64,000 nt of DNA. It comes from Arenicola marina (lineage: Eukaryota; Annelida; Polychaeta; Arenicolidae). The position numbers and the translations under genes are program-made. Below, piece after piece: positions 11,336 through 49,100 of this stretch. A model generated the notes under the pieces. It made no database searches and was not told the DNA's origin. It saw only the letters and a program-made list of their open reading frames with translations. The DNA lies in assembly GCA_964019135.1 (NCBI GenBank), contig OZ025258.1, forward strand, positions 6,653,961-6,717,960, in the 5' to 3' direction. How positions within the stretch are numbered: the first letter of the stretch is position 1; the number at the start of each line of letters is the position of its first letter.

Positions 11336-11444
11336 GATGTGTGTGGGGTGCGTTAAACAGACCCGGATGCTTACGTGTATGGCGACGAGAGGACCGATGG
11401 GGGTGCTGAACAATCTGTGGACGTTTCTTATGCCGACTGCGCCA

Positions 11445-17300: not shown

Positions 17301-17380
17301 TATGAACTCGAATTCCAAAGGTGGGTATTGTCTTTGGTTTGTTTTCAACTAGTGTTGTAAACTTTGGATGGAATACGTCT

Positions 17381-20870: not shown

Positions 20871-21367
20871 GCATAGTGGGACAGACAGCTTTATTTTATT
20901 AGTATAGAAGTCTTCTAGCAGGCGGCCCTTGGGTTGTATGTCTTTACAACCCCATAGCGTATGATGGGCGTTGAAATCGCCAAGGAGTATATAGGGCGCT
21001 GGAAGTTGTTTCACTACATTTTCTAGTTCTAGTCGTGTAAGACGTAAATTAGGTGGAATATAGAGCACAGGGTTACGGTTTTGTGTAATGTTGTTCGTAT
21101 GGCTATAGCTTGCAGGTCGGTCTGTAAGGGTATTTGCCTGTGGGGAGTTTTCTCCTTTATAAGGATACTAACTCCGCCTGTGATTTTATCTCCCGTATTG
21201 AGTTCTAGATTATCATATGATGTATATCCATTAATTGTTATATCTTCTTGGTTTTTGATAAATGTTTCTTGGAGACAAAACGCTGTGGGGTTGTGGTAAT
21301 GATTTAATAAGAGGACTTCACGATTGGCTCTCATACCTCGACAATTCCATTGTATAATGGAAGCCAT
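20871..21367 (-). pseudogene. LINE ORF2 endonuclease, N-terminal part
   Basis: Begins MASIIQWNCRGMRANREVLL at 21367, the standard start of I/Jockey APE endonucleases. CLQETF (the QE metal-binding pair), then GGVSILIKE and PYILLGDFNAHHTLWG (GDFN box) near 20990 follow. Frame changes occur between the blocks. The enzyme nicks target DNA for reverse transcription. Confidence 0.88.
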
Positions 21368-21497
21368 GGTTTATTATATGGGTGGTGTATCTGCTTAGTG
21401 TTTTCTTTTGTCACTTCCTCTTTGTTGTATGTCTGTTTCCATTTATTCTTCTTCCTCCTCCTCTAATTGCGATTATTTGTTATGTACTTTGATGGGA

Positions 21498-22791: not shown

Positions 22792-22799
22792 ACACGGTA

Positions 22800-23239
22800 T
22801 ACTCGCATAACATATACTTATTCTTCTGTGGGGAAAAAAGAGGTATTTGCCACTTGATTAGCCCAAGCCACTGTCCTAACAGTATCTTGTTCAGAGCAAC
22901 TGAAATATGAGGTGTCTGAAAGGACTCACTGAATACGGTTGTATGAATAATAGGGTGAAAATGTGTTTCATATGATGTTGCTGAACAGGAATCCTTGGGC
23001 TTGTCGCGACGAGCCGATTGCTCGGACCGGGCCAAATCTGACCTCCCGTCTAGGAGAAATAAGGGTCAAACTGGTATCTTGCAGAAACAGAGTTTCCACT
23101 CAACCAGTCCCGTCTTCCTCTGACACGGGTTGCGAACCACGGCCTACGCTTCGCCGCCTTTTATTCGCCTTTTACGACATGCAGATATTAAACATGGAGG
23201 TGCATCGGGCCTATTCTACTTTCCCCCGAACCCGCAGGG
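22800..23239 (-). mobile_element. LINE 5' untranslated region
   Basis: On the minus strand it starts CCCCCTGCGGGTTCGGGGG at 23239 and runs through AGAATAGGCCCGATG and TGTCGTAAAAGGCG. This head is commonly found at the 5' end of Nimb/I-type LINEs and marks a full-length 5' end. Satellite resumes directly at about 23240. Confidence 0.7.
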
Positions 23240-25844
23240 GGCTCAAAGAAAGTGACATTTGCCCTACACAGTGAATGGTTTGGGTGAAATATGGTCAAAA
23301 TATGGTCCAGTTACTTATTCTATAGGTATCTGGGATATATTTATGGCTTTTGTTTGTAAATTATGTGTTTTGCAAGTATGGTCCAGTTCCTCATTTTAAC
23401 GGTATCTGGGGTATATTTAGGCCGTTAAGTTTTAAATTAAGTGTTGGGCAAGTAATGAATGGCTTTGGAGCCATGTATTATGGATGTCCCAAGTCTATGG
23501 AACCAAGATTTCCCCTGCCCAGTGGTCACTTTGAGATAAATATGGTCAAAATATGGTCCAGTTCCTTATTTTAATGGTATCTGGGGTATACTATGCCGTT
23601 AATTTTTAAATTAAGTGTTGGGCAAGTGATGAATGGCTTTGGAGACATGTATTATGAATGTCCCAAGTCTATGGAACCAAGATTGCCCTGCCCAGTGATC
23701 ACTTTGAGATAAATATGATCAAAATATGGTCCAGTTACTTATTCTAAAGGAATTTAGGGTACATTTACGCATTTAAGTTTTTAATTATGTGTTGGGCAAG
23801 TGATGAATGGCTTCGGAGACATGTATTATAGATGTCCCAAGTCTATGGAATGAAGATTTGCCCTTCCCAGTGGTCACTTTGACATAAATATGGTCAAAAT
23901 ATGGTCCAGTTACTTATTTTAAGTGTATCTGCAGTATATTTAGGCCGTTAATTTGTAAATTAAATATTGGGCAAGTGATGAACGGCTTTGGAGACATGTA
24001 TTATGGATGACCCAAGTCTATGGAATGATAATTTGCCCTGCCCAGTGGTGACTGAGATAAATATGGTCAAATTAGGGTACATTTATGCCTTAAATATTTA
24101 AATTAGGTGTTGGGCAGGTTATACATGGCTTTGGAGGCATGTATTTTACATGCCCCCAAGTCTATGGAACGAAGATTTGCCCTGCCCAGTGGTCACTTTA
24201 AGATAAATATGGTCAAAATATGGTCCAGTTACTTATTCTCAAGGAATTTAGGGTACATTTATGCCTTTAATTTTTTAATTATGTGTTGGGCAAGTGATGA
24301 ATGGCTTTGGAGACATGTATTATGGATGTCCCAAGTCTATGGAATGAAGATTTGCCCTGCCCAGTGGTCACTTTGACATAAATATGGTCAAAATATGGTC
24401 CAGTTACTTATTCTCAAGGAACTTAGGGTACATTTATGCCTTTAATTTTTTAATTATGTGTTGGGCAAGTGATGAATGGCTTTGGAGACATGTATTATCG
24501 ATGTCCCAAGGCTATAGAACCAAGATTTGCCCTGCCCAGTGGTCACGTTGAGATAAATATGGTCAAAATGTGGTCCAGTTACTTATTCTCAAGGAATTTA
24601 GGGTACATTTACGCCTTTAATTTTTTTATTATCCGTTGGGCAAGTGATGAATGGCTTTGGAGACATGTATAATGGATGTCCCAAGTCTATGGAACAAAGA
24701 TTTGCCCTGCCCAGTGGTGAATTTGAGACAAATATGGTCAAAATATGGTCCAGTTACTTATTCTCAAGGAATTTAGGGTACATTTATGCTGTTAATTTTT
24801 TAATTATGTGTTGGGCAAGTGATGAATGGTTTTGGAGACATGTATAATGGATGTCCCAACACTATGGAACCAAGACTTGCCCCGCCCAGTGGTGAATTTG
24901 AGACAAATATGGTCAAAATATGGTCCAGTTACTTATTCTCAAGGAATTTAGGGTACATTTATGGTGTTAATTTTTTAATTATGTGTTGGGCAAGCGATGA
25001 ATGGTTTTGGAGACATGTATAATGGATGTCCCAACACTATGGAACCAAGACTTGCCCTGCCCAGTGGTGAATTTGAGACAAATATGGTCAAAATAGGGTC
25101 CAGTTACTTATTCTCAAGGAATTTAGGGTACATTTATGCTGTTAATTTTTTAATTATGCGTTGGGCAAGTGATGAATGGTTTTGGAGACATGTATAATGG
25201 ATGTCCCAACACTATGGAACCAAGACTTGCCCTGCCCAGTGGTGAATTTGAGACAAATATGGTCAAAATATGGTCCAGTTACTTATTCTCAAGGAATTTA
25301 GGGTACATTTATGGTGTTAATTTTTTAATTATGTGTTGGGCAAGCGATGCATGCCTTTGAAGACATGTATAATGGATATCCCAACACTATGGAACCAAGA
25401 CTTGCCCTGCCCAGTGGTGAATTTGAGACAAATATGGTCAAAATGTGGTCCAGTTACTTATTCTCAAGGAATTTAGGGTACATTTATGCTGTTAATTTTT
25501 TAATTATGCGTTGGGCAAGTGATGAATGGTTTTGGAGACATGTATAGTGGATGTCCCAACACTATGGAACCAAGACTTGCCCTGCCCAGTGGTGAATTTG
25601 AGACAAATATGGTCAAAATATGGTCCAGTTACTTATTCTCAAGGAATTTAGGGTACATTTACGCCTTTAATTTTTTTATTATGCGTTGGGCAAGTGATGA
25701 ATGGCTTTGGAGACATGTATAATGGATGTCCCAAGTCTATGGAACCAAGATTTGCCCTGCCCAGTGGTGAATTTGAGATTAATATGGTCAAAATGTGGTC
25801 CAGTTACTTATTCTCAAGGAATTTAGGGTACATTTACGCCTTTA
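23240..25844 (+). repeat. 175-bp satellite array, right arm, about 15 units
   Basis: Same family as 13073-16437 but in the opposite orientation (GGTCCAGTTACTTATTC, GTGTTGGGCAAGTGATGAA, GACATGTATTATGGATGTCC, CTGCCCAGTGGTCACTTTG). Units from about 24450 to 25720 are much more alike than the rest, and from about 24800 alternate between two subtypes, giving a 350-bp dimer. The array ends at GCCTTTA (25844), the same phase of the unit at which the left arm ends (13073). Confidence 0.96.
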
Positions 25845-28099
25845 TGCGAGCCATGTGAGCCAGGCGTCTTCCTCGACCCGCATCCCGCTCTGACCGACCT
25901 TGACCCCTGGCTGTGACGATACAGGGGCTTGTCAAGTCTGGCTTTAGTCTGGCTTGCCAGTCAGGTGGCAGGGCTTCAGCGCTGAATGGCTCCTGCACGG
26001 TTTGTTATTTTTGCTTGTTAGTGTCTTGCTGTGGGATCTAAGGTATCAAAATGTCAACCTGTTTTGCACCGAATTATAGGATAACCGAGAAAGCAAATCC
26101 TGGTACATTTTTAGCAGCCCTGGAAACAACCGGATGGCTTGCAAATTTGGATGCAAAAAAATTGTAGTCGGTAGGCCCACACGAACTAGCGCCATCAGCT
26201 CGTATATGTCAGATCACTTTGAGGAACAATGTTTGGTGGTTGAAGCGAAATAGTAAGCGCTTCATACATTGTCAGTTAATAGCGCGCAAGTGCTAAGCTT
26301 ACCCTGTCAACCGTTTGTACCAACGTTCAATACAATTTTATCTCAGCTTGTCTTAAATATAAACTGGCGCCACATCCGTACGACAAAGTAATAAGCTGTA
26401 AGCATATGTGACCTGACATATGATAATGTTATTTTATTATTTTATTTTATTCAACTTTTACATGTTACATTTCTTAATGCATGAACCAGTATTAACTGCA
26501 AATTATAGTTACTATTGCAACAAAATCTAAATGTAAAGCAAACTGGCGGGTCGCATGAATAGATATTTCTATGAGTTGAATAAATATCTTTGTATGAAGG
26601 GCCACATCAGGAAATAAGGTGTGTTACCATCCATATAAAAAAACATCATTTTAAATGAAACTATCTCAAAATTGTATGCCTAAAGGGCATTGGCCGAGCT
26701 ATGAAATCTTATTTATGACCTATCCTAGACTGGGGGTCGATCCAATCCCCCTCTTTCTTTCTCTTTCGGGGGAGGAGAGGGGGGTGGGGTGGCATAAGGG
26801 CACCTTCGGTCAACAGGATACGGTACCTAGTTGTCCTGTACCTCAACAGCTTGAACATCTTATATCTAGGGTTAGATGGATTGCAGAGGCTGCCAGGTAA
26901 CCAAAATATGAGGAGGGAGGGGGGGGGGGGGGGCTAACATTTGAGACTGATCACATATCTATGTGTCACATAAATGCCCGAATTCCATTATTCCTGATCC
27001 CCCCCCCCCCCCCCCACCGCCGCACTCACCCGCTCACTGGTCTCACTCTCAGACACCCCATGTGTCTGAGAGTGTTCGATGGGGGCTCAGGGATCTTCGA
27101 TGGGGGTCTCAGGGATCTCATCTGTTTGGCACCGAGATCTACTGTAATACTGAGCAATCATCTAACCGGGAAAGAATATTTTACTGGCAGCTTAATTTTG
27201 GATCCCCCCCCCCTCCCCCCTACCCCATTCTTGCATGTTGCATCCTGGCCAGACATTCATTAACGGACCTGTCTCTTACATCCCTGACTGCCGGTCTTAC
27301 GGCACACATGCTGCTTAGAAGCAGGCCTGGTAAAGACAGACACTGACCACACGAGCACCAATCCCGCCCTTCAAGGCGACTGTCAGGTGTCGTGCTTTCA
27401 CTTTATCCGGCCAATGTATTTTCTGGATCAGAGGCTTCTTGAGGAGCAGGCTGATTTGGTTCAGAGTCTAATAACCTCGATTCATAGGCATATGATACAA
27501 TATTCCGGGACACCGCCATCACTTCCCAGCATGTTTATACCGTGTTTACAACTCCCGCGCTGCGGCCTAAGCCCCCATTGCGTGACGCTCTCCCACTGGC
27601 TGGGAGCGCAGAATCTAGGTCAACACCATGTTGGCTCAGCCGAGCCAGAGAGGCTGCTATTTTGAGAGCGTTCTGTTGCATAGTAAGTGGCAGAGGTTTC
27701 ACGTGCGCTTTAGTAATATCGGAAACGGGTGGTCACAACGTTGTTTATGGAATAAACCATGTAAACGCCGTCGTATTTTCTGGACCGAAGGCCTCCTTTA
27801 ATGTGCAAAAAGTGATATTCCCTCAGGAAGCCCGACCACCCACCCCCCACTTCCGCCCCCTCCCAGTCGGCCGACACCCAATCGTCGAGGCGCGCAGACT
27901 AATCCGCTGGCTCGCTAGACCCCCCATCCCCTTCCCCCCTCCCCCCCACCCCATCCCTCCCATACCCCATCCCCTACCCCACACCCCGTCCCCCCCACCC
28001 CCCTTAAATCCTTCTGCTGTTTGGCCCTTCGGTCATTATGAGTGTACACCTATTCAGGCATCCCTGTCAGAGTTATGATTCATATAACTATATTTTCAG
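25845..28099. other. Intergenic region upstream of KIF22
   Basis: No exon is supported. It holds AT-rich DNA (26420-26460), several G or C runs (26917-26933, 27000-27016, 27900-28010), a perfect 11-bp hairpin with CTCTCAGACAC arms near 27046-27072, and short direct repeats of TTCGATGGGGGCTC type. Open frames at 27542-28078 are C-run by-products. A 5' UTR exon and the KIF22 promoter are expected here because an acceptor (TATTTTCAG, ending 28099) lies 7 bp before the start codon, but neither can be placed. Confidence 0.5.
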
Positions 28100-28106
28100 C
28101 TAAGCA

Positions 28107-31100
28107 ATGGAATCAAAGATTGGTGGATGCAGGCAACGTGTGAAAGTGGTTGTACGTGTGAGACCACAGGTTTTTGATGACAAGCTATGGGTTCAAGTAT
28201 GCGACCATAAAACCCTACAAACAGTCAACCACAGAAATACGGAAGAATCTCTACAATATGAGTAAGGATATCATATTCTAATCTTTAACTACACAATGAA
28301 ATATATTGTATATAATGAGTACATTATTACTTTCATAGTCACTTCTGAAGTAATAGTTTGGAGCTTCCACTTCTTTGAGAATATTAGACATATGTTGTGG
28401 TTGCTGCAGGATATTCCTGCTGGGTGCATTTTTATATTTTACAAGATCTATTAAATACAAGTGGGATATTTACTAATGCTTTTTCACATTCCTGCAGAAG
28501 CTCTGTAATTCTAAGATACATATTCAGCTTTCTGTATTTGCATTTCTCCAGCAACGTTTGTAACTAAAAGAGATTCCTTTGAAATTCAGTTAATTAAAGT
28601 TGCTCATGCAACCATTTTTTACTTAAATTATGGTTTTCGAAATATTTTGGAAATACGTTTAGAACACATTGCCTGACTGTATAAATTTTACCTTAAGATC
28701 TGTCATCGCATGATAAAAGGTATAAAACTGCCGCAATGTGCATATTTCGATGACATAGTACACAAGAAAGCCACACTTTTTTGTTTTACCTCTTAAACCT
28801 TAGGTCTATTATCAACCCTTGGTTCTTGTGCAACTGTTAAAGCAATATATTCCGTAATTTTTTGTGTTACCAACCTCTTCTCCATGTCAAATAAGTACAC
28901 TTTCTTGAGTTTAAATACTGAAAGCCTGCGGGCTATCCGGAGAGAAGCATTTTGGTCAACGGAGCAGAAGTTGGTGGCCGGCTTTATATCCCTACGCGCC
29001 TGTTCGCAGTTCGCTATTTTGTGTGTGATGTACACCGCGGCTCGCTATGACGTCCGTGCGCGATAAAAATAAACCGCGAAGTTTTATGTTGAAATGTTTG
29101 TTTACAGACTCAAAGAGATATAAAAACATACGCATCATATATTTTGAGATACTTTAGTCTTCATTTTAAAATGTAAAAAATCTAATAATGAAACTGGATG
29201 ACATTTACAATGAGGTTGTTATACAAATCATAGCAATACAAATTGATATCTGCTGAATGCACGTACATCAGTTGCATCATATGTGACATGGTTGTAATAC
29301 TTGCCTATTTTGCTGTTACAGATTTGAATCTGTGTATGGTCCTGCAGCAGATCAAGGAATCATATACAAGGAATGTGTTAAGCCACTGTTGCAGAAAACA
29401 CTCCTTGGGCAAAATGCAAGTGTCTTTGCCTATGGCCCAACTGGTGCAGGTATGTAGTTGCCCTTGTATGCAGTTTTGTTCCCAGTCCCTATAGTTTGCA
29501 TGATATTAATTTGCAGGCTGATCCTTCATATTGTAATATCAATCTAATCAATAATCATTTTTCTTTAGTTATTGACACAGTAAAGTATGCTATAGTTAAA
29601 CAATTCAATATCACAGTGTCTTTTCTTCACCGGTTTTAATGTCTTAATGTGCATTATACAGTACATTATTAATATAATATTTGAACGCATTGGTCTTGTG
29701 CTAGAAACCAACCAGTCTTAAATGTGGTCACCCAACCAATTGAGAGAATAACTTATTGTTCTTCTGTTGCTGGGGAACCTCCATAGCTTAGTTGGGTAAG
29801 CCGACGAGCTGGAGATCAACATTTCATGGGTTCGCACCTTGGCTCCTGCATCTGGGGCATGCTTCATCCAACCCCATGTCATTGGGCGCATTTCTTTGTG
29901 CCAGGTTTGGTATTACGCCCGGGACACGTAACACGTGACAGGATAGGGATGTGCCTATTCCAATGAAATGCACACACCGTTCACATCCGGTGCGCCTAGG
30001 GGCACTGGAACCAACCTACTTTCATCACCTTTCAGTCAGCCGCCTTCTGCTCCCGAATGTCCCGTGCTGTTTTGAACGGGCACATCGGCATACCGAATGG
30101 ATGCGCGCGCATCCTTCCCCGGCTGAATGAAGTGTCAGGCGGTATACCGATGCGTAATGTGCGTTTTCGGGTTACCGCAGGGATATACCGAGCTACCAAA
30201 GAAATGCGCCCATTGTCCCGGGAGGTGCTGTCTCGGCCCAGTTTAGCTAGCCCACATATGCACAAAAACGCAGCAAAGCAAAACTTCAACCAACCAACAT
30301 TCCATGTTTTCTGTGGCTGTATGGTGACGCGGTATGTTATAGGCTCATCCTGTTATTATTCACGTTGAGGTGCTATAGTCAGGAGAGATGCCCTATTCGC
30401 CTATGTCTGTGTCTCATTCTGTCAGTGTCATTCCACACAGGGAAGACGCACACGATTCTTGGTACCCCTGACAACCCTGGCGTCATACCACGGTGTGTGA
30501 AAGGCGTCTTTGCGGCCGCGGAGGAACAGAAACTCAAGCTGGCTGCGGCCGGGGAAGACTGGTCTTATCAAGTGTCCTACTCTTATCTGGAGATCTATCA
30601 GGAAAAGGTAGGTGCCAGCTAGACTGCCGTATATTCGGTGCTTACGTCGCAAAACAAATTAAATGCGTCTTATATGTAGGATGTTGCGGTAAATATTTAT
30701 GCATGAACAAGGCATACGCAATTATTACTATATTAAATACGTTAGACAATATTACGTTTTTAAAGTTTTTGCTCAGTGGTGATCTTTATTTTGTTTTCAC
30801 GTGATTATTGTATCAGGGTAAGGGCATTAATGTGGTTACAATTTACTATCGAAGTAGCGGCAGATGTGGAATTTTTTTGTAATGTTGAAGACGACATGTT
30901 CATAATTTGTTCAACATGTCACATTATTCTTAGTTCAGAAGCACGTTTTCTGCTTCCAAAACATTATGGTCATTAGATGAAGAATGTGGATAATATTGCG
31001 ATGTTTGTGACACATTGAAATATCTAATGATAATCTTATCCATTGGACTTTAGGTACAGGACCTGTTAAACCCAAGCGGCAGTGACCTGCCCATCAGGGA

Positions 31101-34100
31101 GGACCAGAACCATCACATCTTCGTGGCTGGACTTTCAGAAAAAGTCATTGATCGGGTGGAAGACTTCAATAAATCCTTTGGGCCGGCCTCCAAAAACAGG
31201 TACATTTATTTCGGAACTGCTCGAGATCTCTCATCAGGTGGGCTTTCGGGGTTTCCGGAGCGCCTTGCTATGTACGCACCCCGTACGTAATCAGGCTCTT
31301 TAAGCGACAGCAGCGGGAGCCCCTCTTTATCAGTTGGTATATAAGCAGGCTGAGGTACATATGAACAAGTCGGGGGTTTGAACCCTGACCTCTACATTTG
31401 TAGCAAATGTTCTCCAACCACATTTTACATGCACAAAAGCGGCCTAAAATACCAACATGCATTTCATTGTAGACTCTTTAGAAAGATCCCCCCCCCCATC
31501 CTCCCTGACTGTTTCGTATGTTGCCCAGGAAGACAGCGAGCACCAAGCTGAACGAGCGGTCGAGCCGCAGCCACAGCATCCTGGTGGTGAAGGTAGAGCG
31601 CCACCTGGCGGGGCCACCGCGACGGAGACTGACCGGCAAACTGTACATCATCGACCTGGCGGGCAGCGAGGACAACAGGAAGACCGGCAACCAGGGCATG
31701 AGGTATGTGGGGAGGGCGGGGGTGTCATGGTGTGATGTGTGGCATGAGGTATGTGGAGAGGGCGGGGGTGTGGTCAGTGGCATGAGGTATGTGGGGAGGG
31801 CGGGGGTGTGGTCAGTGGCATGAGGTATGTGGGGAGGGCGGGGGTGTGGTCAGTGGCATGAGGTATGTGAGGAGGGCGGGGGTGTCATGGTGTGATGTGT
31901 GGCATGAGGTATGTGGGGAGGGCGGGGGTGTGGTCAGTGGCATGAGGTATGTGGGGAGGGCGGGGGTGTGGTCAGTGGCATGAGGTATGTGGGGAGGGCG
32001 GGGGTGTGGTCAGTGGCATGAGGTATGTGGGGAGGGCGGGGGTGTGGTCAGTGGCATGAGGTATGTGGGGAGGGCGGGGGTGTGGTCAGTGGCATGAGGT
32101 ATGTGGGGAGGGCGGGGGTGTGGTCAGTGGCATGAGGTATGTGGGGAGGGCGGGGGTGTGGTCAGTGGCATGAGGTATGTGGGGAGGGCGGGGGTGTGGT
32201 CAGTGGCATGGGGTATGTGGGGAGGGCGGGGGTGTGGTCAGTGGCATGAGGTATGTGGGGAGGGCGGGGGTGTGGTCAGTGGCATGGGGTATGTGGGGAG
32301 GGCGGGGGTGTCATGGTGTGATGTGTGGCATGAGGTATGTGGGGAGGGCGGGGGTGTGGTCAGTGGCATGAGGTATGTGGGGAGGGCGGGGGTGTGGTCA
32401 GTGGCATGAGGTATGTGGGGAGGGCGGAGGTGTGGTCAGTGGCATGAGGTATGTGGGGAGGGCGGGGGTGTGGTCAGTGGCATGAGGTATGTGGGGAGGG
32501 CGGGGGTGTGGTCAGTGGCATGAGGTATGTGGGGAGGGCGGGGGTGTCATGGTGTGATGTGTGGCATGAGGTATGTGGGGAGGGCGGGGGTGTGGTCAGT
32601 GGCATGAGGTATGTGGGGAGGGCGGGGGTGTGGTCAGTGGCATGAGGTATGTGGGGAGGGCGGGGGTGTGGTCAGTGGCATGGGGTATGTGGGGAGGGCG
32701 GGGGTGTGGTCAGTGGCATGAGGTCTGTGGGGAGGGCGGGGGTGTGGTCAGTGGCATGAGGTATGTGGGGAGGGCGGGGGTGTGGTCAGTGGCATGGGGT
32801 ATGTGGGGAGGGCGGGGGTGTCATGGTGTGATGTGTGGCATGAGGTATGTGGGGAGGGCGGGGGTGTGGTCAGTGGCATGAGGTATGTGGGGAGGGCGGG
32901 GTGTGGTCAGTGGCATGAGGTATGTGAGGAGGGCGGGGATGTGGTCAGTGGCATGAGGTATGTGGGGAGGGCGGGGGTGTGGTCAGTGGCATGAGGTATG
33001 TGGGGAGGGCGGGGGTGTCATGGTGTGATGTGTGGCATGAGGTATGTGAGGAGGGCGGGGGTGTGGTCAGTGGCATGAGGTATGTGGGGAGGGCGGGGTG
33101 TGGTCAGTGGCATGAGGTATGTGGGGAGGGCGGGGGTGTGGTCAGTGGCATGGGGTATGTGGGGAGGGCGGGGGTGTGGTCAGTGGCATGGGGTATGTGG
33201 GGAGGGCGGGGGTGTGGTCAGTGGCATGAGGTATGTGGGGAGGGCGGGGATGTGGTCAGTGGCATGAGGTATGTGAGGAGGGCGGGGATGTGGTCAGTGG
33301 CATGAGGTATGTGGGGAGGGCGGGGGTGTGGTCAGTGGCATGAGGTATGTGGGGAGGGCGGGGGTGTGGTCAGTGGCATGAGGTATGTGGGGAGGGCGGG
33401 GGTGTCATGGTGTGATGTGTGGCATGAGGTATGTGGGGAGGGCGGGGATGTGGTCAGTGGCATGAGGTATGTGAGGAGGGCGGGGGTGTGGTCAGTGGCA
33501 TGAGGTATGTGGGGAGGGCGGGGGTGTGGTCAGTGGCATGAGGTATGTGGGGAGGGCGGGGGTGTGGTCAGTGGCATGAGGTATGTGGGGAGGGCGGGGG
33601 TGTCATGGTGTGATGTGTGGCATGAGGTATGTGGGGAAGGCGGGGATGTGGTCAGTGGCATGAGGTATGTGGGGAGGGCGGGGGTGTGGTCAGTGGCATG
33701 AGGTATGTGGGGAGGGCGGGGGTGTGGTCAGTGGCATGAGGTATGTGGGGAGGGCGGGGGTGTGGTCAGTGGCATGAGGTATGTGGGGAGGGCGGGGGTG
33801 TGGTCAGTGGCATGAGGTATGTGGGGAGGGCGGGGGTGTCATGGTGTCATGTGTGGCATGAGGTATGTGGGGAGGGCGGGGGTGTGGTCAGTGGCATGAG
33901 GTATGTGGGGAGGGCGGGGGTGTGGTCAGTGGCATGAGGTATGTGGGGAGGGCGGGGGTGTGGTCAGTGGCATGAGGTATGTGGGGAGGGCGGGGGTGTG
34001 GTCAGTGGCATGGGGTATGTGAGGAGGGCGGGGGTGTGGTCAGTGGCATGGGGTATGTGGGGAGGGCGGGGGTGTGGTCAGTGGCATGGGGTATGTGAGG

Positions 34101-37100
34101 AGGGCGGGGGTGTGGTCAGTGGCATGAGGTATGTGGGGAGGGCGGGGGTGTGGTCAGTGGCATGAGGTATGTGGGGAGGGCGGGGGTGTCATGGTGTGAT
34201 GTGTGGCATGAGGTATGTGGGGAGGGCGGGGATGTGGTCAGTGGCATGAGGTATGTGAGGAGGGCGGGGGTGTGGTCAGTGGCATGAGGTATGTGGGGAG
34301 GGCGGGGGTGTGGTCAGTGGCATGAGGTATGTGGGGAGGGCGGGGGTGTGGTCAGTGGCATGAGGTATGTGGGGAGGGCGGGGGTGTCATGGTGTGATGT
34401 GTGGCATGAGGTATGTGGGGAAGGCGGGGATGTGGTCAGTGGCATGAGGTATGTGGGGAGGGCGGGGGTGTGGTCAGTGGCATGAGGTATGTGGGGAGGG
34501 CGGGGGTGTGGTCAGTGGCATGAGGTATGTGGGGAGGGCGGGGGTGTGGTCAGTGGCATGAGGTATGTGGGGAGGGCGGGGGTGTGGTCAGTGGCATGAG
34601 GTATGTGGGGAGGGCGGGGGTGTCATGGTGTCATGTGTGGCATGAGGTATGTGGGGAGGGCGGGGGTGTGGTCAGTGGCATGAGGTATGTGGGGAGGGCG
34701 GGGGTGTGGTCAGTGGCATGAGGTATGTGGGGAGGGCGGGGGTGTGGTCAGTGGCATGAGGTATGTGGGGAGGGCGGGGGTGTGGTCAGTGGCATGGGGT
34801 ATGTGAGGAGGGCGGGGGTGTGGTCAGTGGCATGGGGTATGTGGGGAGGGCGGGGGTGTGGTCAGTGGCATGGGGTATGTGAGGAGGGCGGGGGTGTGGT
34901 CAGTGGCATGAGGTATGTGGGGAGGGCGGGGGTGTGGTCAGTGGCATGAGGTATGTGGGGAGGGCGGGGGTGTGGTCAGTGGCATGAGGTATGTGGGGAG
35001 GGCGGGGGTGTCATGGTGTCATGTGTGGCATGAGGTATGTGGGGAGGGCGGGGGTGTGGTCAGTGGCATGAGGTATGTGGGGAGGGCGGGGGTGTGGTCA
35101 GTGGCATGAGGTATGTGGGGAGGGCGGGGGTGTGGTCAGTGGCATGGGGTATGTGAGGAGGGCGGGGGTGTGGTCAGTGGCATGGGGTATGTGGGGAGGG
35201 CGGGGGTGTGGTCAGTGGCATGGGGTATGTGAGGAGGGCGGGGGTGTGGTCAGTGGCATGGGTTATGTGGGGAGGGCGGGGGTGTCATGGTGTGATGTGT
35301 GGCATGAGGTATGTGGGGAGGGCGGGGGTGTGGTCAGTGGCATGAGGTATGTGGGGAGGGCGGGGTGTGGTCAGTGGCATGAGGTATGTGAGGAGGGCGG
35401 GGATGTGGTCAGTGGCATGAGGTATGTGGGGAGGGCGGGGGTGTGGTCAGTGGCATGAGGTATGTGGGGAGGGCGGGGGTGTCATGGTGTGATGTGTGGC
35501 ATGAGGTATGTGAGGAGGGCGGGGGTGTGGTCAGTGGCATGAGGTATGTGGGGAGGGCGGGGTGTGGTCAGTGGCATGAGGTATGTGGGGAGGGCGGGGG
35601 TGTGGTCAGTGGCATGGGGTATGTGGGGAGGGCGGGGGTGTGGTCAGTGGCATGGGGTATGTGGGGAGGGCGGGGGTGTGGTCAGTGGCATGAGGTATGT
35701 GGGGAGGGCGGGGATGTGGTCAGTGGCATGAGGTATGTGAGGAGGGCGGGGATGTGGTCAGTGGCATGAGGTATGTGGGGAGGGCGGGGGTGTGGTCAGT
35801 GGCATGAGGTATGTGGGGAGGGCGGGGGTGTGGTCAGTGGCATGAGGTATGTGGGGAGGGCGGGGGTGTCATGGTGTGATGTGTGGCATGAGGTATGTGG
35901 GGAGGGCGGGGATGTGGTCAGTGGCATGAGGTATGTGAGGAGGGCGGGGGTGTGGTCAGTGGCATGAGGTATGTGGGGAGGGCGGGGGTGTGGTCAGTGG
36001 CATGAGGTATGTGGGGAGGGCGGGGGTGTGGTCAGTGGCATGAGGTATGTGGGGAGGGCGGGGGTGTCATGGTGTGATGTGTGGCATGAGGTATGTGGGG
36101 AAGGCGGGGATGTGGTCAGTGGCATGAGGTATGTGGGGAGGGCGGGGGTGTGGTCAGTGGCATGAGGTATGTGGGGAGGGCGGGGGTGTGGTCAGTGGCA
36201 TGAGGTATGTGGGGAGGGCGGGGGTGTGGTCAGTGGCATGAGGTATGTGGGGAGGGCGGGGGTGTGGTCAGTGGCATGAGGTATGTGGGGAGGGCGGGGG
36301 TGTCATGGTGTCATGTGTGGCATGAGGTATGTGGGGAGGGCGGGGGTGTGGTCAGTGGCATGAGGTATGTGGGGAGGGCGGGGGTGTGGTCAGTGGCATG
36401 AGGTATGTGGGGAGGGCGGGGGTGTGGTCAGTGGCATGAGGTATGTGGGGAGGGCGGGGGTGTGGTCAGTGGCATGGGGTATGTGAGGAGGGCGGGGGTG
36501 TGGTCAGTGGCATGGGGTATGTGGGGAGGGCGGGGGTGTGGTCAGTGGCATGGGGTATGTGAGGAGGGCGGGGGTGTGGTCAGTGGCATGAGGTATGTGG
36601 GGAGGGCGGGGGTGTGGTCAGTGGCATGAGGTATGTGGGGAGGGCGGGGGTGTGGTCAGTGGCATGAGGTATGTGGGGAGGGCGGGGGTGTCATGGTGTG
36701 ATGTGTGGCATGAGGTATGTGGGGAGGGCGGGGATGTGGTCAGTGGCATGAGGTATGTGAGGAGGGCGGGGGTGTGGTCAGTGGCATGAGGTATGTGGGG
36801 AGGGCGGGGGTGTGGTCAGTGGCATGAGGTATGTGAGGAGGGCGGGGGTGTGGTCAGTGGCATGAGGTATGTGGGGAGGGCGGGGGTGTGGTCAGTGGCA
36901 TGAGGTATGTGGGGAGGGCGGGGGTGTGGTCAGTGGCATGAGGTATGTGGGGAGGGCGGGGGTGTCATGGTGTGATGTGTGGCATGAGGTATGTGGGGAA
37001 GGCGGGGATGTGGTCAGTGGCATGAGGTATGTGGGGAGGGCGGGGGTGTGGTCAGTGGCATGAGGTATGTGGGGAGGGCGGGGGTGTGGTCAGTGGCATG

Positions 37101-40100
37101 AGGTATGTGGGGAGGGCGGGGGTGTGGTCAGTGGCATGAGGTATGTGGGGAGGGCGGGGGTGTGGTCAGTGGCATGAGGTATGTGGGGAGGGCGGGGGTG
37201 TCATGGTGTCATGTGTGGCATGAGGTATGTGGGGAGGGCGGGGGTGTGGTCAGTGGCATGAGGTATGTGGGGAGGGCGGGGGTGTGGTCAGTGGCATGAG
37301 GTATGTGGGGAGGGCGGGGGTGTGGTCAGTGGCATGAGGTATGTGGGGAGGGCGGGGGTGTGGTCAGTGGCATGGGGTATGTGAGGAGGGCGGGGGTGTG
37401 GTCAGTGGCATGGGGTATGTGGGGAGGGCGGGGGTGTGGTCAGTGGCATGGGGTATGTGAGGAGGGCGGGGGTGTGGTCAGTGGCATGAGGTATGTGGGG
37501 AGGGCGGGGGTGTGGTCAGTGGCATGAGGTATGTGGGGAGGGCGGGGGTGTCATGGTGTGATGTGTGGCATGAGGTATGTGGGGAGGGCGGGGATGTGGT
37601 CAGTGGCATGAGGTATGTGAGGAGGGCGGGGGTGTGGTCAGTGGCATGAGGTATGTGGGGAGGGCGGGGGTGTGGTCAGTGGCATGAGGTATGTGGGGAG
37701 GGCGGGGGTGTGGTCAGTGGCATGAGGTATGTGGGGAGGGCGGGGGTGTCATGGTGTGATGTGTGGCATGAGGTATGTGGGGAAGGCGGGGATGTGGTCA
37801 GTGGCATGAGGTATGTGGGGAGGGCGGGGGTGTGGTCAGTGGCATGAGGTATGTGGGGAGGGCGGGGGTGTGGTCAGTGGCATGAGGTATGTGGGGAGGG
37901 CGGGGGTGTGGTCAGTGGCATGAGGTATGTGGGGAGGGCGGGGGTGTGGTCAGTGGCATGAGGTATGTGGGGAGGGCGGGGGTGTCATGGTGTCATGTGT
38001 GGCATGAGGTATGTGGGGAGGGCGGGGGTGTGGTCAGTGGCATGAGGTATGTGGGGAGGGCGGGGGTGTGGTCAGTGGCATGAGGTATGTGGGGAGGGCG
38101 GGGGTGTGGTCAGTGGCATGAGGTATGTGGGGAGGGCGGGGGTGTGGTCAGTGGCATGGGGTATGTGAGGAGGGCGGGGGTGTGGTCAGTGGCATGGGGT
38201 ATGTGGGGAGGGCGGGGGTGTGGTCAGTGGCATGGGGTGTGTGAGGAGGGCGGGGGTGTGGTCAGTGGCATGAGGTATGTGGGGAGGGCGGGGGTGTGGT
38301 CAGTGGCATGAGGTATGTGGGGAGGGCGGGGGTGTGGTCAGTGGCATGAGGTATGTGGGGAGGGCGGGGGTGTCATGGTGTCATGTGTGGCATGAGGTAT
38401 GTGGGGAGGGCGGGGGTGTGGTCAGTGGCATGAGGTATGTGGGGAGGGCGGGGGTGTGGTCAGTGGCATGAGGTATGTGGGGAGGGCGGGGGTGTGGTCA
38501 GTGGCATGGGGTATGTGAGGAGGGCGGGGGTGTGGTCAGTGGCATGGGGTATGTGGGGAGGGCGGGGGTGTGGTCAGTGGCATGGGGTATGTGAGGAGGG
38601 CGGGGGTGTGGTCAGTGGCATGGGTTATGTGGGGAGGGCGGGGGTGTGGTCAGTGGCATGAGGTATGTGGGGAGGGCGGGGGTGTCATGGTGTCATGTGT
38701 GGCATGAGGTATGTGGGGAGGGCGGGGGTGTGGTCAGTGGCATGAGGTATGTGGGGAGGGCGGGGGTGTGGTCAGTGGCATGAGGTATGTGGGGAGGCCG
38801 GGGGTGTGGTCACTGGCATGAGGTATGTGGGGAGGGCGGGGGTGTGGTCAGTGGCATGGGGTATGTGAGGAGGGCGGGGGTGTGGTCAGTGGCATGGGGT
38901 ATGTGGGGAGGGCGGGGGTGTGGTCAGTGGCATGAGGTATGTGGGGAGGGCGGGGGTGTGGTCAGTGGCATGAGGTATGTGGGGAGGGCGGGGGTGTGGT
39001 CAGTGGCATGAGGTATGTGGGGAGGGCGGGGGTGTGGTCAGTGGCATGAGGTATGTGGGGAGGGCGGGGGTGTCATGGTGTGATGTGTGGCATGAGGTAT
39101 GTGGGGAGGGCGGGGATGTGGTCAGTGGCATGAGGTATGTGAGGAGGGCGGGGGTGTGGTCAGTGGCATGGGGTATGTGGGGAGGGCGGGGGTGTCCTGG
39201 TGTGATGTGTGGCATGAGGTATGTGGGGAGGGCGGGGGTGTCATGGTGTGATGTGTGGCATGAGGTATGTGGGGAGGGCGGGGGTGTCATGGTGTGATGT
39301 GTGGCATGAGGTATGTGGGGAGGGCGGGGGTGTCATGGTGTGATGTGTGGCATGAGGTATGTGAGGAGGGCGGGGGTGTGGTCAGTGGCATGGGGTATGT
39401 GGGGAGGGCGGGGGTGTCCTGGTGTGATGTGTGGCATGAGGTATGTGGGGAGGGCGGGGGTGTCATGGTGTGATGTGTGGCATGAGGTATGTGGGGAGGG
39501 CGGGGGTGTCATGGTGTGATGTGTGGCATGAGGTATGTGGGGAGGGCGGGGGTGTGGTCAGTGGCATGAGGTATGTGGGGAGGGCGGGGGTGTGGTCAGT
39601 GGCATGAGGTATGTGGGGAGGGCGAGGGTGTGGTCAGTGGCATGAGGTGTGTGGGGAGGGCGGGGGTGTGGTCAGTGGCATGAGGTATGTGGAGAGGGCG
39701 GGAGTGTCATGGTGTGATGTGTGGCATGAGGTATGTGGAGAGGGCGGGGGTGTCATGGTGTGATGTGTGGCATGGGGTATGTGGAGAGGGCGGGGGTGTC
39801 ATGGTGTGATGTGTCATGGTGTGATATGTGGCATGAGGTATGTGGGGAGGGCGGGGGTGTGGTCAGTGGCATGAGGTATGTGGGGAGGGCGGGGGTGTGG
39901 TCAGTGGCATGAGGTATGTGAGGAGGGCGGGGGTGTGGTCAGTGGCATGGGGTATGTGAGGAGGGCGGGGGTGTGGTCAGTGGCATGAGGTATGTGGGGA
40001 GGGCGGGGGTGTGGTCAGTGGCATGGGGTATGTGGGGAGGGCGGGGGTGTGGTCAGTGGCATGAGGTATGTGGGGAGGGCGGGGGTGTGGTCAGTGGCAT

Positions 40101-43100
40101 GGGGTATGTGGGGAGGGCGGGGGTGTGGTCAGTGGCATGAGGTATGTGGGGAGGGCGGGGGTGTGGTCAGTGGCATGAGGTATGTGAGGAGGGCGGGGGT
40201 GTGGTCAGTGGCATGGGGTATGTGAGGAGGGCGGGGGTATGGTCAGTGGCATGAGGTATGTGAGGAGGGCGGGGGTGTGGTCAGTTGCATGGGGTATGTG
40301 AGGAGGGCGGGGGTGTGGTCAGTGGCATGAGGTATGTGGGGAGGGCGGGGGTGTGGTCAGTGGCATGGGGTATGTGAGGAGGGCGGGGGTGTGGTCAGTG
40401 GCATGAGGTATGTGAGGAGGGCGGGGGTGTGGTCAGTGGCATGGGGTATGTGGGGAGGGCGGGGGTGTGGTCAGTGGCATGAGGTATGTGGGGAGGGCGG
40501 GGGTGTGGTCAGTGGCATGGGGTATGTGGGGAGGGCGGGGGTGTGGTCAGTGGCATGAGGTATGTGGAGAGGGCGGGGGTGTGGTCAGTGGCATGAGGTA
40601 TGTGGGGAGGGCGGGGGTGTGGTCAGTGGCATGGGGTATGTGGGGAGGGCGGGGGTGTCATGGTGTGATGTGTGGCATGAGGTATGTGGGGAGGGCGGGG
40701 GTGTGGTCAGTGGCATGGGGTATGTGGAGAGGGCGGGGGTGTCATGGTGTGATGTGTGGCATGAGGTATGTGAGGAGGGCGGGGTGTGGTCAGTGGCATG
40801 AGGTATGTGGGGAGGGCGGGGGTGTGGTCAGTGGCATGAGGTATGTGGGGAGGGCGGGGGTGTGGTCAGTGGCATGAGGTATGTGGGGAGGGCGGGGGTG
40901 TGGTCAGTGGCATGAGGTATATGGAGAGGGCGGGGGTGTGGTCAGTGGCATGAGGTATGTGGGGAGGGCGGGGGTGTGGTCAGTGGCATGGGGTATGTGG
41001 GAAGGGCGGGGGTGTCATGGTGTGATGTGTGGCATGAGGTATGTGGGGAGGGCGGGGGTGTGGTCAGTGGCATGGGGTATGTGGAGAGGGCGGGGGTGTC
41101 ATGGTGTGATGTGTGGCATGAGGTATGTGAGGAGGGCGGGGATGTGGTCAGTGGCATGAGGTATGTGGGGAGGGCGGGGATGTGGTCAGTGGCATGAGGT
41201 ATGTGGGGAGGGCGGGGGTGTGGTCAGTGGCATGGGGTATGTGGGGAGGGCGGGGGTGTCATGGTGTCATATGTGGCATGAGGTATGTGGGGAGGGCGGG
41301 GGTGTGGTCAGTGGCATGAGGTATGTGAGGAGGGCGGGGGTGTCATGGTGTCATGTGTGGCATGAGGTATGTGGGGAGGGCGGGGGTGTGGTCAGTGGCA
41401 TGAGGTATGTGGGGAGGGCGGGGGTGTCATGGTGTGATGTGTGGCATGAGGTATGTGGGGAGGGCGGGGGTATGGTCAGTGACATGAGGTATGTGGGGAG
41501 GGCGGGGGCGTCATGGTGTGATGTGTGGCATGAGGTATGTGGGGAGGGCGGGGATGTGGTCAGTGGCATGAGGTATGTGGGGAGGGCGGGGTGTGGTCAG
41601 TGGCATGGGGTATGTGGGGAGGGCCGGGGTGTGGTCAGTGGCATGAGGTATGTGGGGAGGGCGGGGGTGTGGTCAGTGGCATGAGGTATGTGGGGAGGGC
41701 GGGGGTGTGGTCAGTGGCATGAGGTATGTGAGGAGGGCGGGGGTGTCATGGTGTGATGTGTGGCATGAGGTATGTGAGGAGGGCGGGGGTGTGGTCAGTG
41801 GCATGAGGTATGTGGGGAGGGCGGGGGTGTCATGGTGTGATGTGTGGCATGAGTTATGTGAGGAGGGCGGGGGTGTGGTCAGTGGCATGGGGTATGTGGG
41901 GAGGGCGGGGGTGTGGTCAGTGGCATGAGGTATGTGAGGAGGGCGGGGGTGTCATGGTGTGATGTGTGGCATGAGGTATGTGAGGAGGGCGGGGGTGTGG
42001 TCAGTGGCATGAGGTATGTGGGGAGGGCGGGGGTGTCATGGTGTGATGTGTGGCATGAGGTATGTGAGGAGGGCGGGGGTGTGGTCAGTGGCATGGGGTA
42101 TGTGGGGAGGGCGGGGGTGTGGTCAGTGGCATGAGGTATGTGGGGAGGGCGGGGGTGTGGTCAGTGGCATGAGGTATGTGAGGAGGGCGGGGGTGTCATG
42201 GTGTGATGTGTGGCATGAGGTATGTGGGGAGGGCGGGGGTGTGGTCAGTGGCATGGGGTATGTGGGGAGGGCGGGGGTGTGGTCAGAGGCATGGCGTATG
42301 TGGGGAGGGCGGGGGTGTGGTCAGTGGCATGAGGTATGTGAGGAGGGCGGGGGTGTGGTCAGTGGCATGGGGTATGTGTTGAGGGCGGGGGTGTCATGGT
42401 GTGATGTGTGGCATGAGGTATGTGGGGAGGGCGGGGGTGTGATGTGTGGCATGAGGTATGTAGGGAGGGCGGGGGTGTGGTCAGTGGCATGAGGTATGTG
42501 AGGAGGGCGGGGATGTCATGGTGTGATGTGTGGCATGAGGTATGTGGGGAGGGCGGGGGTGTGGTCAGTGGCATGAGGTATGTGGGGAGGGCGGGGGTGT
42601 GGTCAGTGGCATGGGGTATGTGGGGAGGGCGGGGGTGTGGTCAGTGGCATGAGGTATGTGGGGAGGGCGGGGGTGTGGTCAGTGGCATGAGGTATGTGGG
42701 GAGGGCGGGGATGTGGTCAGTGGCATGAGGTATGTGAGGAGGGCGGGGGTGTGGTCAGTGGCATGAGGTATGTGGGGAGGGCGGGGGTGTGGTCAGTGGC
42801 ATGAGGTATGTGGGGAGGGCGGGGGTGTGGTCAGTGGCATGAGGTATGTGAGGAGGGCGGGGGTGTGGTCAGTGGCATGAGGTATGTGAGGAGGGCGGGG
42901 GTGTCATGGTGTGATGTGTGGCATGAGGTATGTGAGGAGGGCGGGGGTGTGGTCAGTGGCATGGGGTATGTGTTGAGGGCGGGGGTGTCATGGTGTGATG
43001 TGTGGCATGAGGTATGTGGGGAGGGCGGGGGTGTGGTCAGTGGCATGAGGTATGTGGGGAGGGCGGGGGTGTGGTCAGTGGCATGAGGTATGTGGGGAGG

Positions 43101-46100
43101 GCGGGGGTGTGGTCAGTGGCATGAGGTATGTGGGGAGGGCGGGGGTGTCATGGTGTGATGTGTGGCATGAGGTATGTGGGGAGGGCGCGGGTGTGGTCAG
43201 TGGCATGAGGTATGTGGGGAGGGCGGGGGTGTGGTCAGAGGCATGGCGTATGTGGGGAGGGCGGGGGTGTGGTCAGTGGCATGAGGTATGTGAGGAGGGC
43301 GGGGGTGTGGTCAGTGGCATGGGGTATGTGGGGAGGGCGGGGGTGTCATGGTGTGATGTGTGGCATGAGGTATGTGGGGAGGGCGGGGGTGTCATGGTGT
43401 GATGTGTGGCATGAGGTATGTGGGGAGGGCGCGGGTGTGGTCAGTGGCATGAGGTATGTGGGGAGGGCGGGGGTGTGGTCAGAGGCATGGCGTATGTGGG
43501 GAGGGCGGGGGTGTGGTCAGTGGCATGAGGTATGTGAGGAGGGCGGGGGTGTCATGGTGTGATGTGTGGCATGAGGTATGTGGGGAGGGCGGGGGTGTGG
43601 TCAGTGGCATGAGGTATGTGGGGAGGGCGGGGGTGTGGTCAGTGGCATGAGGTATGTGGGGAGGGCGGGGGTGTGGTCAGTGGCATGAGGTATGTGGGGA
43701 GGGCGGGGGTGTGGTCAGTGGCATGAGGTATGTGAGGAGGGCGGGGGTGTGGTCAGTGGCATGAGGTATGTGAGGAGGGCTGGGGTGTGGTCAGTGGCAT
43801 GGGGTATGTGAGGAGGGCGGGGGTGTGGTCAGTGGCATGGGGTATGTGGGGAGGGCGGGGGTGTGGTCAGTGGCATGAGGTATGTGAGGAGGGCGGGGGT
43901 GTGGTCAGTGGCATGAGGTATGTGAGGAGGGCGGGGGTGTGGTCAGTGGCATGGGGTATGTGAGGAGGGCGGGGGTGTGGTCAGTGGCATGAGGTATGTG
44001 GGGAGGGCGGGGGTGTGGTCAGTGGCATGGGGTATGTGAGGAGGGCGGGGTTGTGGTCAGTGGCATGAGGTATGTGGGGAGGGCGGGATGTGGTGTGTGG
44101 CATCAGGTATGTGGGGAGGGCGGGATGTGGTGTCTGGCGCCAGGTGTGTGGGGAAGGACGCTGCCTGGGGGGTGAGCACATTGAGATGATGGCTGACCAG
44201 CCCTTTCAATGGGTATAGCTCATCGTGGGGACGGGTAACCATGGCTTCACATGGAGTCCTTGACATCGTTGTTTACCTTTCAGACTGAAGGAGTCGGGGG
44301 CCATCAACGGTTCTCTCTTGGCGCTTGGACAGGTCGTGGACGCCTTGAACAAAGGACAGGTACTGAAGTCACGTGTTCTAAATGCTCCTTTAGTCCTGAC
44401 AACTCGCATATTGATAGGTGTATCAGCTATATTGAGCTTCTCAGTCTAAGATGCTATTGAAGTGTTTGTTACTGTATAGTTTGTGAATTTGATCTCATTA
44501 TATTACTGTTATTGTGTTATGAATATGCCGACACTTTGATGTTTCAGGTGTGTGTGCCATACAGAGGAAGTAAACTGACCAGACTTCTGCAGGTATGAAC
44601 ACACTGTTTATGTGCTATATACGTAGGATGGAGCTATGCACTTTAATACTCTGCTATTAAAACTTTAATATTTATGCTGATCATTATAGCGTGTATATTA
44701 AATTGAAAGTGGACACAACTAGAAACTTATAGTTAGCACTTGTAAAATGTCGAACAAAGAGCGACTAAATCAGTAATCTCAATGAGTGTCACGGTAGGTG
44801 AACTAATCTTATATTTGTGCATGTCACATATCACATGTTACCGGTCTTTAGGACAATCTGTGACTCCTTCGTTTTATCCCTCAATGTGATGAACTGTATC
44901 TTGAATATAGTTATGTTTTATCCTTTGTGGACAGGACTCTTTGGGAGGGAGTTGTCACAGCTGTATGATCGTCAATCTGTCCCCCGAAGAGCGTCATTAC
45001 TTCGACACTTACACGACACTGCACTTTGCTCGCAAAGCTAAGAAGATCGTTAACACTGTCAAGACAAATGAAGTCCTACGTGAGTCATGGTCTGTCCGCC
45101 ATTCTCCCGCCCTTCCCTTTATTCTAATTTTCTGTTTTATATCCTACATGACCATCGTCACGTTGCCGGCTGTGTGGCTCTTGTAGATGTTGGTTGTATA
45201 TTCAGGACGCTTTAAGCACATTTGGTCTTATCGCACCAATGGGAGAAGGGAGGGAGAGTGGGGCCATGTCCCCGGGGGTAACCCCCTACTCTTTACGAAG
45301 AAAGACATGGGATCTTTATCCTGCGACCACACAGAGATGGCCACATCAGGGCTCGAATCATCGATCCACGTGCCGTTATGTCTCAGGTGGCCAGAGCACT
45401 CAATGCGAGCGCTCTAGCCCACTGAGCTATCGCTCCGGCCCCCGCATCTGATAGAAGCTGTAGTTCTGTATTAGCATTTAACCATTTTTGCTTCGGAGTT
45501 ACACCATGCATGACGTCTTGGTTAGACTGTGTGGGTGCGTTCTAATCATTAAAGTAAAGTTTGTAAGCTGTACGTATCATTAATGACGATGATAACATAA
45601 CTCAATCCATAAAACTATTGCTGCCTTTTAGAAAAACCTCCGTCAGTTATTCAGATGAAGAGAAAGTTCGACGATGGGAAGGACCAGTCGGGTTCACGAA
45701 CGCCGCCGAAGATGCAGAAGGTCGACCCGGCGCCATTCCTGAGGTGAGGCAATGTCTCCCGCCTAGATATGTTGTGGTGTATATCGAGTGTCACCTGCCG
45801 GAGGACGGCTTGATGGCGGACGAAATTAAAGTTACGGTCGTTGGTTGCTGGACTACGATTGTCTCTTGTTTGACGAAAATCGGTCGCTCATTGTGCGACT
45901 GTCGCAATTGCTCCTAACGATCGTCGATTGAAACAGTATGGTTTCACGCCCCGTCACTGTCGGTCATCTGGAGCAAGTGGTCCCTGGGCACTGATCCCGA
46001 GAGACGACGAACCTTAGTTCAATGTTATCGTGTGGTTAATTGCCGATAGCCTATTGCTTATCCGGCTACATATAGTAAGTGTCTACCACAGCATATTTTT

Positions 46101-49100
46101 AACGCATTTTTCGATATATCTTTGTAGTTGAATTAATTATAACGTGCTGCGCTCTTTCCTATGAAGCCCTATCCTGCGGAAACAAGAGAAGTTTCGATCC
46201 GAATTGCGCGAAGAGGTGTTCTCGCGTCTGGAGGAGTTGGAAGGTCGACTTCTTCAGCAGATGAAGTTCCCATCACCAACGCCAGGTAAATGCCTTCTCC
46301 TTGTCTTAGGGTATCATTATCATTATTTAGGGTAAAATGTGGGTCTCTCAAAGTATTCGTATGTTTGCTTAGAGACGGTTGTTCGTTCTGTGGCAACGAT
46401 TTTGGCAACGAGTGTCTTGAGTTACGCGAGCCCTGAAACAAAGAGTAACTGCTTTCTTGTGACGGGAGCTCTAGGCAATGCACTCGTGGGCATTGATGCG
46501 TACAAAGACAGTAACACACATCAAGGACACGGCCGTGGGCTCTGTCTTTGTTGATGACACGTTTATTTTACAGATTAAAGGATACGAAGTAACCTCTTGT
46601 CGATTGATGTACGGTATTGATTCCGCTGTATGTGTGAACAATTGTCTGAGATGGTGCGGTTCAACTACACTGATTGCCCCCCCCCCCCCACCCAACCCAC
46701 ACACTGACATATCGAAATTGGGGAAGTTTCGCTAATGAGACCACTCAGTCCCATCGGTGATCTTATTTTTTTTTTTAATAGAGGGGTTCCACTGTATTTG
46801 TTACGGAACATTTTAATTCCCCCCCACCACCTGTAGCATGTTTTCTAATACTATTGCCCGAACATGGCCAGACCGTATTTGGTTCTCTTTGCCCACCCGA
46901 CGCTCCCACCAATCGCATCTTGCCACAACTTTATTAGTGACGCAGGTAAGCAAACAAATTCTGATTAGGTCTGTCGTAAGAAATCAATGGTTGGATTGAG
47001 CTGATGTGTCAGGTTTGCTCCACTCACCTACGATTCATACTGTCACATAAACTTGAATGATGTCAAAGAGTTTGCACTTCACAGGACTAATGGAAGTGAT
47101 TCAAACTTCCAAAAGACTTCCAAAAGACAGTTTGAATCACTCAGTTTAAATATGTTTAAACTAAGTGATTCAAACTGTCTTTTGGCGGGCCCTATCAGGA
47201 TAGCAATTCTTTATGAATATATGGACATAGTTTGTAATTGACCCCTTGCCATTTCCACAGGAAAACCGCTGCATGAAGTTCATATTCCTTTGATATTGTT
47301 GTCTGTTATAGAGAACTGTGAGAGTACTGATCCTGACAGCACGACACAGGATGCGAGTCCCCATCGCCGACGTTCGAGATCGGCCACCAGCGCCCTCAAC
47401 CCCCTGAATCCAGAAACCATTCAGCTCCTGGAGAACATCAAGTACCAGTTGCGTCACCTCAAGCAACCGGACGGGCACGTGGTCACGACAACATCCGGGT
47501 CACGGGAAAACTGTCGCCATGGTGCTGAGAAAAGCTCGGAATCGACCCGAGAAAAAAACAGGCGGAAATCACAACGTCTCGTTGTCAAGGAAACGGGTGG
47601 GTGGCACTCATTTTTGGAATTACGGTCTTTAGGACTTTTGATCTTTCCCAAAGAAGTTGGCATGGGAAGAATTACACACTGATCGTACTTCAAGCTTGTC
47701 CATATCTTCGAATTGGACAGAGACCTAACCGGCTTTTTCGCACTCTCTTGGCTGTGGCCCACTGTGACATCAGATACGGTATAAACCAAAATAATTCTAC
47801 AATTTTTGATTTAGTTGGCAATGAGATGGAGTTTACAGCTTGAGTGGAATAGAAATCCGCGGTGTTTTGTGTGAAGATGCCGTGGAACGTTGTCACAGCA
47901 CATTTTAATGGTTGTGCTATTTCGAACTTTCTTATTTTTCTTGTCGTTTTCAGTATTCTCCGATGGTTCAACCATGAATGACCTAAAGACACAAGACCTC
48001 AAGTATAGTCCCTTGTTCGCCAAACCTTTTCTATTGAAACGCAAAGGCTTCAAATCGACGGCGTCACGTTCTGGTAATACTATGAGATACAATTTATTTA
48101 TTCACGTGCAGTACGCAGTACTGCACGAGAATAAATCTATGACGCATGACAGCGACACTGAGGCTATTCCAGCAGCTATTCCCCGTCTTTCTAGTGTCTA
48201 ATTTGTTCACGTTTTATGCCCTGAAAATAAATCTATTTATGTGACTAAAATTCATTATATGAGCATCTTTATAATCTCCAAAACCGTGCAACATATCAGT
48301 CGGTGATGTGATAACCAAAATTTTCCCTCAGTTGTCCTGTTTTTTTGTCCATGTTGCACAAGTTACAGTTCTGTTAAATCCATCTTTAAATTCAGCATTT
48401 ATATGTAGAATGTTGTGAAATCTGTGGTTCAAGTGACTTTAAACTGGTATGGTTAAAGATCAATGCCTGTGTCCTAATAGGTTCATTTATAACATATTTC
48501 TAGATGTCCAATGCGCATGGTTGTCTATTATTCTTTTAATTGTTGAGTTAATTTGTTAAAATGTATTGGTGCTGACAACAGATGCTGACATGGATGCCTC
48601 CGAAAACGTGAGCTGCAACTCTGCTCGAAACCCAGAGTTCCAGAAATCACACAGTAATATTTTATTCGTCCATTGTCGAATATTTAATTACGTATCTTTA
48701 TCTAGCTGTTAGCTTGTGTGTCATAACGGTACTGTTATTACATATATAACACTAAGTCTACGTATAAATTTAACCTCGTCATTTACACTGCCACAGCCCA
48801 ACTGGTTCAGTCTCATGCGCCATTCTTCATAAAAAAATAAATAAAAATAAGTCAAGCATCGGATCTTATGACGGCAAGGGTATCATATTGATATTACCGT
48901 TTGTTGTAGCAAGCATTTGAGCTGGCAGAATTGTCCATTCATCATTTGCACTGAATCGCTTCAGACGCAGACATCCTCAAACTCCTGAACGAAGGCACGG
49001 TGAAGGAGCTGCAGAATCTGCAGACGGTGGGGGCCAAGCGGGCTAAGCTGATACACAGCTGGCGTGAGCTGAGCGGCCACTTCACCACGGTAAGGGACCT

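Follow-up and report, generated by a model that had tools for sequence, protein, structure and literature searches.

In the window, by which we mean the whole 64-kb stretch of DNA that was analysed, the boundary between exon 5 and intron 5 of a KIF22 gene lies inside the first unit of a tandem array that runs from 31695 to about 44150 (about 12.5 kb, 316 units, mostly of 38 or 46 bp), and of which all but the first 8 bases are intronic. Very probably, this array is a minisatellite that has incorporated a splice junction, with coding constraint maintaining the first copy while the others ride along in the intron. KIF22 intron 5 offers a natural experiment on donor choice by the spliceosome, which meets hundreds of near-identical donors there, all but two of them breaking the reading frame if used. 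We will first describe the gene, then the structure and probable growth of the array, and then the donors that it contains; finally, we will compare it with the arrays of this kind that have already been described.

The KIF22 gene and its exon 5/intron 5 boundary

Six exons can be joined at ag/gt borders, the first of them trimmed by two bases to fit the frame, to give a 250-residue kinesin motor piece on the + strand (Pfam kinesin motor, E 7.7e-79). The joined protein matches the KIF22 chain 6nje_A with 289.8 bits, against 178.8 bits for the next best kinesin, which supports the name that a first-pass annotation of this DNA had given to the gene. The alignment to 6nje_A is uninterrupted through the junction of exons 5 and 6, where KIF22 in 6nje reads ...TGNKGLRLKESGAIN and the gene of the window ...TGNQGMRLKESGAIN. 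The end of exon 5 at 31702, also proposed in that annotation, is upheld by this alignment and by the translation of the junction. The features of the gene and of the array are the following, the exons being numbered from the first one recognised and not from a transcript:

About 28108-28261, 29322-29449, 30441-30607 and 31054-31199, + strand: upstream exons of KIF22, with borders read by eye
31529-31702, + strand: KIF22 exon 5, which ends in GGCATGAG and codes for ...DLAGSEDNRKTGNQGMR, placed by translation, by the PDB alignment across the junction and by the flanking ag/gt
31695-31740, + strand: array unit 1, of the 46-bp type, with the last 8 exon bases and the presumed true donor
31703-44283, + strand: KIF22 intron 5, 12,581 bp
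31741-44153, + strand: array units 2 to 316, in all of which the exon end and the donor recur as copies
32837-38600 (right end approximate), + strand: region of large repeated blocks of units, a 17-unit block being present four times and a 34-unit block twice
44284-44359, + strand: KIF22 exon 6, which begins with ACTGAAGGAG after tttacctttcag
44548-44592 and 44935-45079, + strand: downstream motor exons of KIF22, included in the joined protein
48966-49090 (approximate ends), + strand: probable C-terminal helix-hairpin-helix exon of KIF22, with a weak HHH_3 match

Among the four upstream pieces, the third and fourth are part of the joined protein and the second has a kinesin motor match of its own (41.5 bits), while the first, which has no Pfam match, is the least certain exon of the gene. 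The HHH_3 match of the probable C-terminal exon (E 1.5e-05, 25.4 bits) falls under the curated cut-off of 27. The six other KIF22 introns that were measured are 188 to 1,157 bp long, the borders of the first two being approximate.

Structure and growth of the array

The first-pass annotation had described a tandem array of about 12.5 kb at the exon 5 boundary, and this is borne out both by TRF, which places it at 31739-44131 with a period of 38, 314.9 copies and 89% matches, and by a fuzzy search with the 18 bases of the exon/intron boundary (at most 4 substitutions, without indels), which recovers 316 units, the first at 31695 and the last at 44136. The 315 spacings between units are of 38 bp (249 cases), 46 bp (57), 37 bp (8) and 61 bp (1). 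Every unit begins by repeating the last 8 bases of exon 5 and continues with the donor GTATGTGGGG or close variants of it. In unit 1, these 8 bases are the end of the exon itself: GGCATGAG closes exon 5 at 31702, and GTATGTGGGG opens intron 5. The identity between exon and units covers exactly 8 bases on the exon side, and farther to the left the two diverge. At the edges of the array, the last two units are diverged and the first is not. Elsewhere in the window, the unit core is found on the + strand at 6109 and 52871, and the - strand contains none (at most 4 substitutions in both cases).

The earlier proposal that the array arose by tandem duplication of the exon/intron boundary is supported. 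The 8 exon bases fall in a stretch of the motor that is shared with the KIF22 of known structure, which makes it most likely that the exon came first and that the array units were copied from it. The identity of the gene and the conserved residues at the junction likewise point to the exon copy as the constrained one. Two constraints would hold unit 1 in place: it encodes the motor residues Gly-Met-Arg, and it contains the donor with which the frame is preserved.

The order of the units is uneven. There are 49 distinct unit sequences among 315, and the private ones number 2, 1, 3, 15 and 9 in the successive fifths of the array (24 of 30 in the last two), which means that the part on the exon side is more homogeneous and the part on the acceptor side more diverged. 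The blocks include an exact repeat of 1,428 bp, at 33449 and 36811, and exact blocks of up to this size suggest recent amplification. Taken together, the block pattern and the gradient of private units would fit unequal exchange and local amplification. We thus envisage that a segment reaching across the junction of exon 5 and intron 5 was tandemly duplicated, giving a G-rich minisatellite, and that this minisatellite expanded to its 316 units via unequal exchange or slippage; its length would probably be unstable.

The exact 1,428-bp repeat and the other repeated blocks can also be read in another way, namely that the array is real but that its length is partly a product of the assembly, with blocks collapsed or multiplied, as in the case of one amphioxus array of this kind that was misassembled in a genome draft (PMC3087553). 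We consider this unlikely, as the window contains no N, and as the diversity of the units and their uneven order, with most private sequences towards the acceptor, fit a real array.

One first donor among 316

The donor 9-mer GAGGTATGT is present in 246 of the 316 units, unit 1 among them, and the GT at +1/+2 is retained in 313, in agreement with the roughly 300 near-identical donors initially reported. The 245 copies that follow unit 1 are to be compared with a mean of 0.7 and a maximum of 4 in 200 first-order Markov sequences modelled on the array. The frame stays open through the next three exons with only two of the 316 donors, those of units 1 and 3, the latter of which would insert 28 residues; retention of intron 5 meets a stop at 31821. 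The choice of donor 1 is therefore needed for the normal protein, and the first-pass view that it keeps this protein intact is supported, KIF22 being read across the junction with an open frame.

The strength of the donors, expressed as the energy of their pairing with the 5' end of U1, does not single out donor 1 as the strongest one, since it is equalled or surpassed by 209 of the 315 donors that come after it. The strongest of all 316 are the last two (44107 and 44144), with -9.4 and -8.8 kcal/mol versus -8.0 for donor 1, and they lie 177 and 140 bases before the acceptor, which is the length of the shorter introns of KIF22. A pure intron-definition rule would favour these two donors, which are both strongest and close to the acceptor. 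We expect the mRNA to join 31702 to 44284, probably through exon definition that acts before the later donors can compete.

This choice may be leaky, with some transcripts using unit 2, unit 3 or a 9-base microexon to give an altered KIF22. Such leakage, which is compatible with the minisatellite reading, is possible, but we would rather bet against it. Besides the open frame of unit 3, it could draw on the 248 sites of the array that read TCAG-TGGCATGRG, one such 9-base microexon adding three residues in frame, and a donor one unit downstream has been seen in use in human ABCA7 (PMC5954066). However, pyrimidines make up at most 45% of the 20 bases preceding any of the 896 AG sites that were examined within the array, versus 65-70% at the five KIF22 acceptors measured, so the microexon acceptors look weak; in addition, the published data on the amphioxus arrays suggest that regular splicing is undisturbed there (PMC3087553).

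Extra donors and the question of their function

No excess conservation of the donor columns could be detected across the units: 6 of 27 substitution kinds are found in the nine donor columns and 16 of 54 in the 18 others (Fisher p = 0.60), and 5 of 9 donor columns are variable as compared to 12 of 18 others (p = 0.68), in a test that is small, could miss weak selection and covers the array apart from the last 2 of the 316 units and columns 28-31. Position -2 of the donor, which is G in 64 of the 316 units, is among the two most variable columns. The donor positions thus do not stand out detectably in conservation from the other positions of the unit, and nothing suggests that the extra donors, which are carried along without detectable selection, have a function; selection on them was rejected as an explanation within the reach of this small test. 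Protection from premature polyadenylation was also rejected, the array being devoid of AATAAA and ATTAAA.

These results bear on the reading in which the array is functional, its hundreds of U1-pairing sites and its G-runs acting on the KIF22 pre-mRNA, for example by holding U1 so that premature polyadenylation within the long intron is prevented, or by tuning splicing according to copy number. The near-universal GT can be invoked for it, as can the G-richness of the coding-sense strand of the array, where 262 G-run clusters and 34 strict G-quadruplex patterns are found on the + strand and none of either on the - strand. Longer alleles of the ABCA7 array are, furthermore, accompanied by changed splicing (PMC5954066). 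Yet conservation does not detectably set the donor columns apart from the others, and the array contains no polyadenylation signal of the two kinds above to be silenced, so we judge a functional array to be very improbable. Its more specific form, a copy-number-dependent stretch that binds U1, forms R-loops and delays or tunes the splicing of KIF22, is a shade less probable still; if it were true, somatic changes in length would alter a mitotic kinesin cell by cell.

Surroundings of the array

Two stretches of the - strand, 1138-1410 and 2291-2593, carry pieces of a PAXIP1-associated protein 1 (PAGR1-like); in human, PAGR1 also lies near KIF22, in 16p11.2. This shared neighbourhood, taken by itself, would fit a chordate, and the mirage-like array described below would point to a lancelet, although the second argument is circular. 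A 19-bp tandem array (1-1027) is situated just past the apparent last PAGR1-like exon (- strand) and touches the edge of the window. Tandem arrays cover about 35% of the 64 kb, as the sum of twelve intervals. In particular, a 175-bp satellite forms two arrays of opposite orientation (13096-16416 and 23301-25845), which flank LINE-like frames (16669-22857), one of them with a weak reverse-transcriptase match under the curated cut-off. A 33-bp array (62958-64000) starts inside a stretch that matches, with 74% over 97 bases (62893-62989), part of a repeat located at about 45230-45460 and 61395-61563; this repeat looks by eye like a tRNA-derived SINE, and its tail seems to be the seed of the 33-bp array. 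The 997-residue open frame at 8564-11554 (- strand) is that of a retroelement: it matches a reverse transcriptase and, weakly and below the cut-off, aspartyl proteases. Neither Rfam at its gathering threshold nor ARAGORN gave any match for RNA genes or tRNAs in the window, and in a Pfam run on 20 pieces chosen from the 456 open frames of at least 45 residues, the nine pieces beyond 50 kb had no match.

Comparison with known boundary-spanning arrays

The first-pass annotation had considered such an amplified donor to be without described precedent. This claim fails, because the amphioxus "mirages" (PMC3087553, PMC3902484) and the human ABCA7 VNTR (PMC5954066) are of the same kind, and the KIF22 array is a large example of what has already been described in lancelets and in human ABCA7. 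As for other papers, passages of those on amphioxus huntingtin (PMC2206037) and on C. elegans minisatellites (PMC4039745) describe no boundary-spanning array.

In their published description, the mirages are minisatellite-like duplications of intron-exon boundaries, found in the globins BflGb6 and BflGb9 with units of 150-160 bp; the same account cites those of Adh3, whose units measure 10-72 bp and which are somatically unstable (PMC3087553). PGBD5 is a further mirage gene of amphioxus, and troponin C is cited too (PMC3902484). Like them, the KIF22 repeats span an exon-intron boundary and carry AG/GT splice signals within the units, whose length falls in the range given for Adh3. Mirages are further marked by cluster edges that escape homogenisation; in KIF22, divergence is seen in the last two units but not in the first. 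In contrast to the mirages of the globins and PGBD5, which have 2 to 7 units in the accounts cited, the KIF22 array has 316; and whereas regular splicing and length instability have been reported for amphioxus, the KIF22 array is described here from one haplotype.

The VNTR of ABCA7 intron 18 is made of a 25-bp unit whose first two bases are the donor of exon 18, and alleles with as few as about 12 and as many as about 427 units are known, the longest reported being 10,678 bp (PMC5954066). The KIF22 array resembles it in that it starts at an exon with a canonical donor, the GT at 31703 lying inside unit 1, and in that it contains hundreds of donor copies. It differs from it by its longer unit, which includes 8 exon bases where that of ABCA7 begins with the donor GT, and by the gene concerned, with no sign of common descent between the two. 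In ABCA7, the longer alleles have been linked to altered splicing that includes the skipping of exon 19, which, along with the use of a downstream donor, means that an array of this type need not be inert. The KIF22 case also suggests that long introns can originate from such arrays, and that these supply raw material from which new exons may form. With fewer copies than the about 427 of ABCA7, the KIF22 array is nevertheless longer in bases than the longest reported allele of that gene, which suggests that boundary-spanning minisatellites can exceed 10 kb outside humans.
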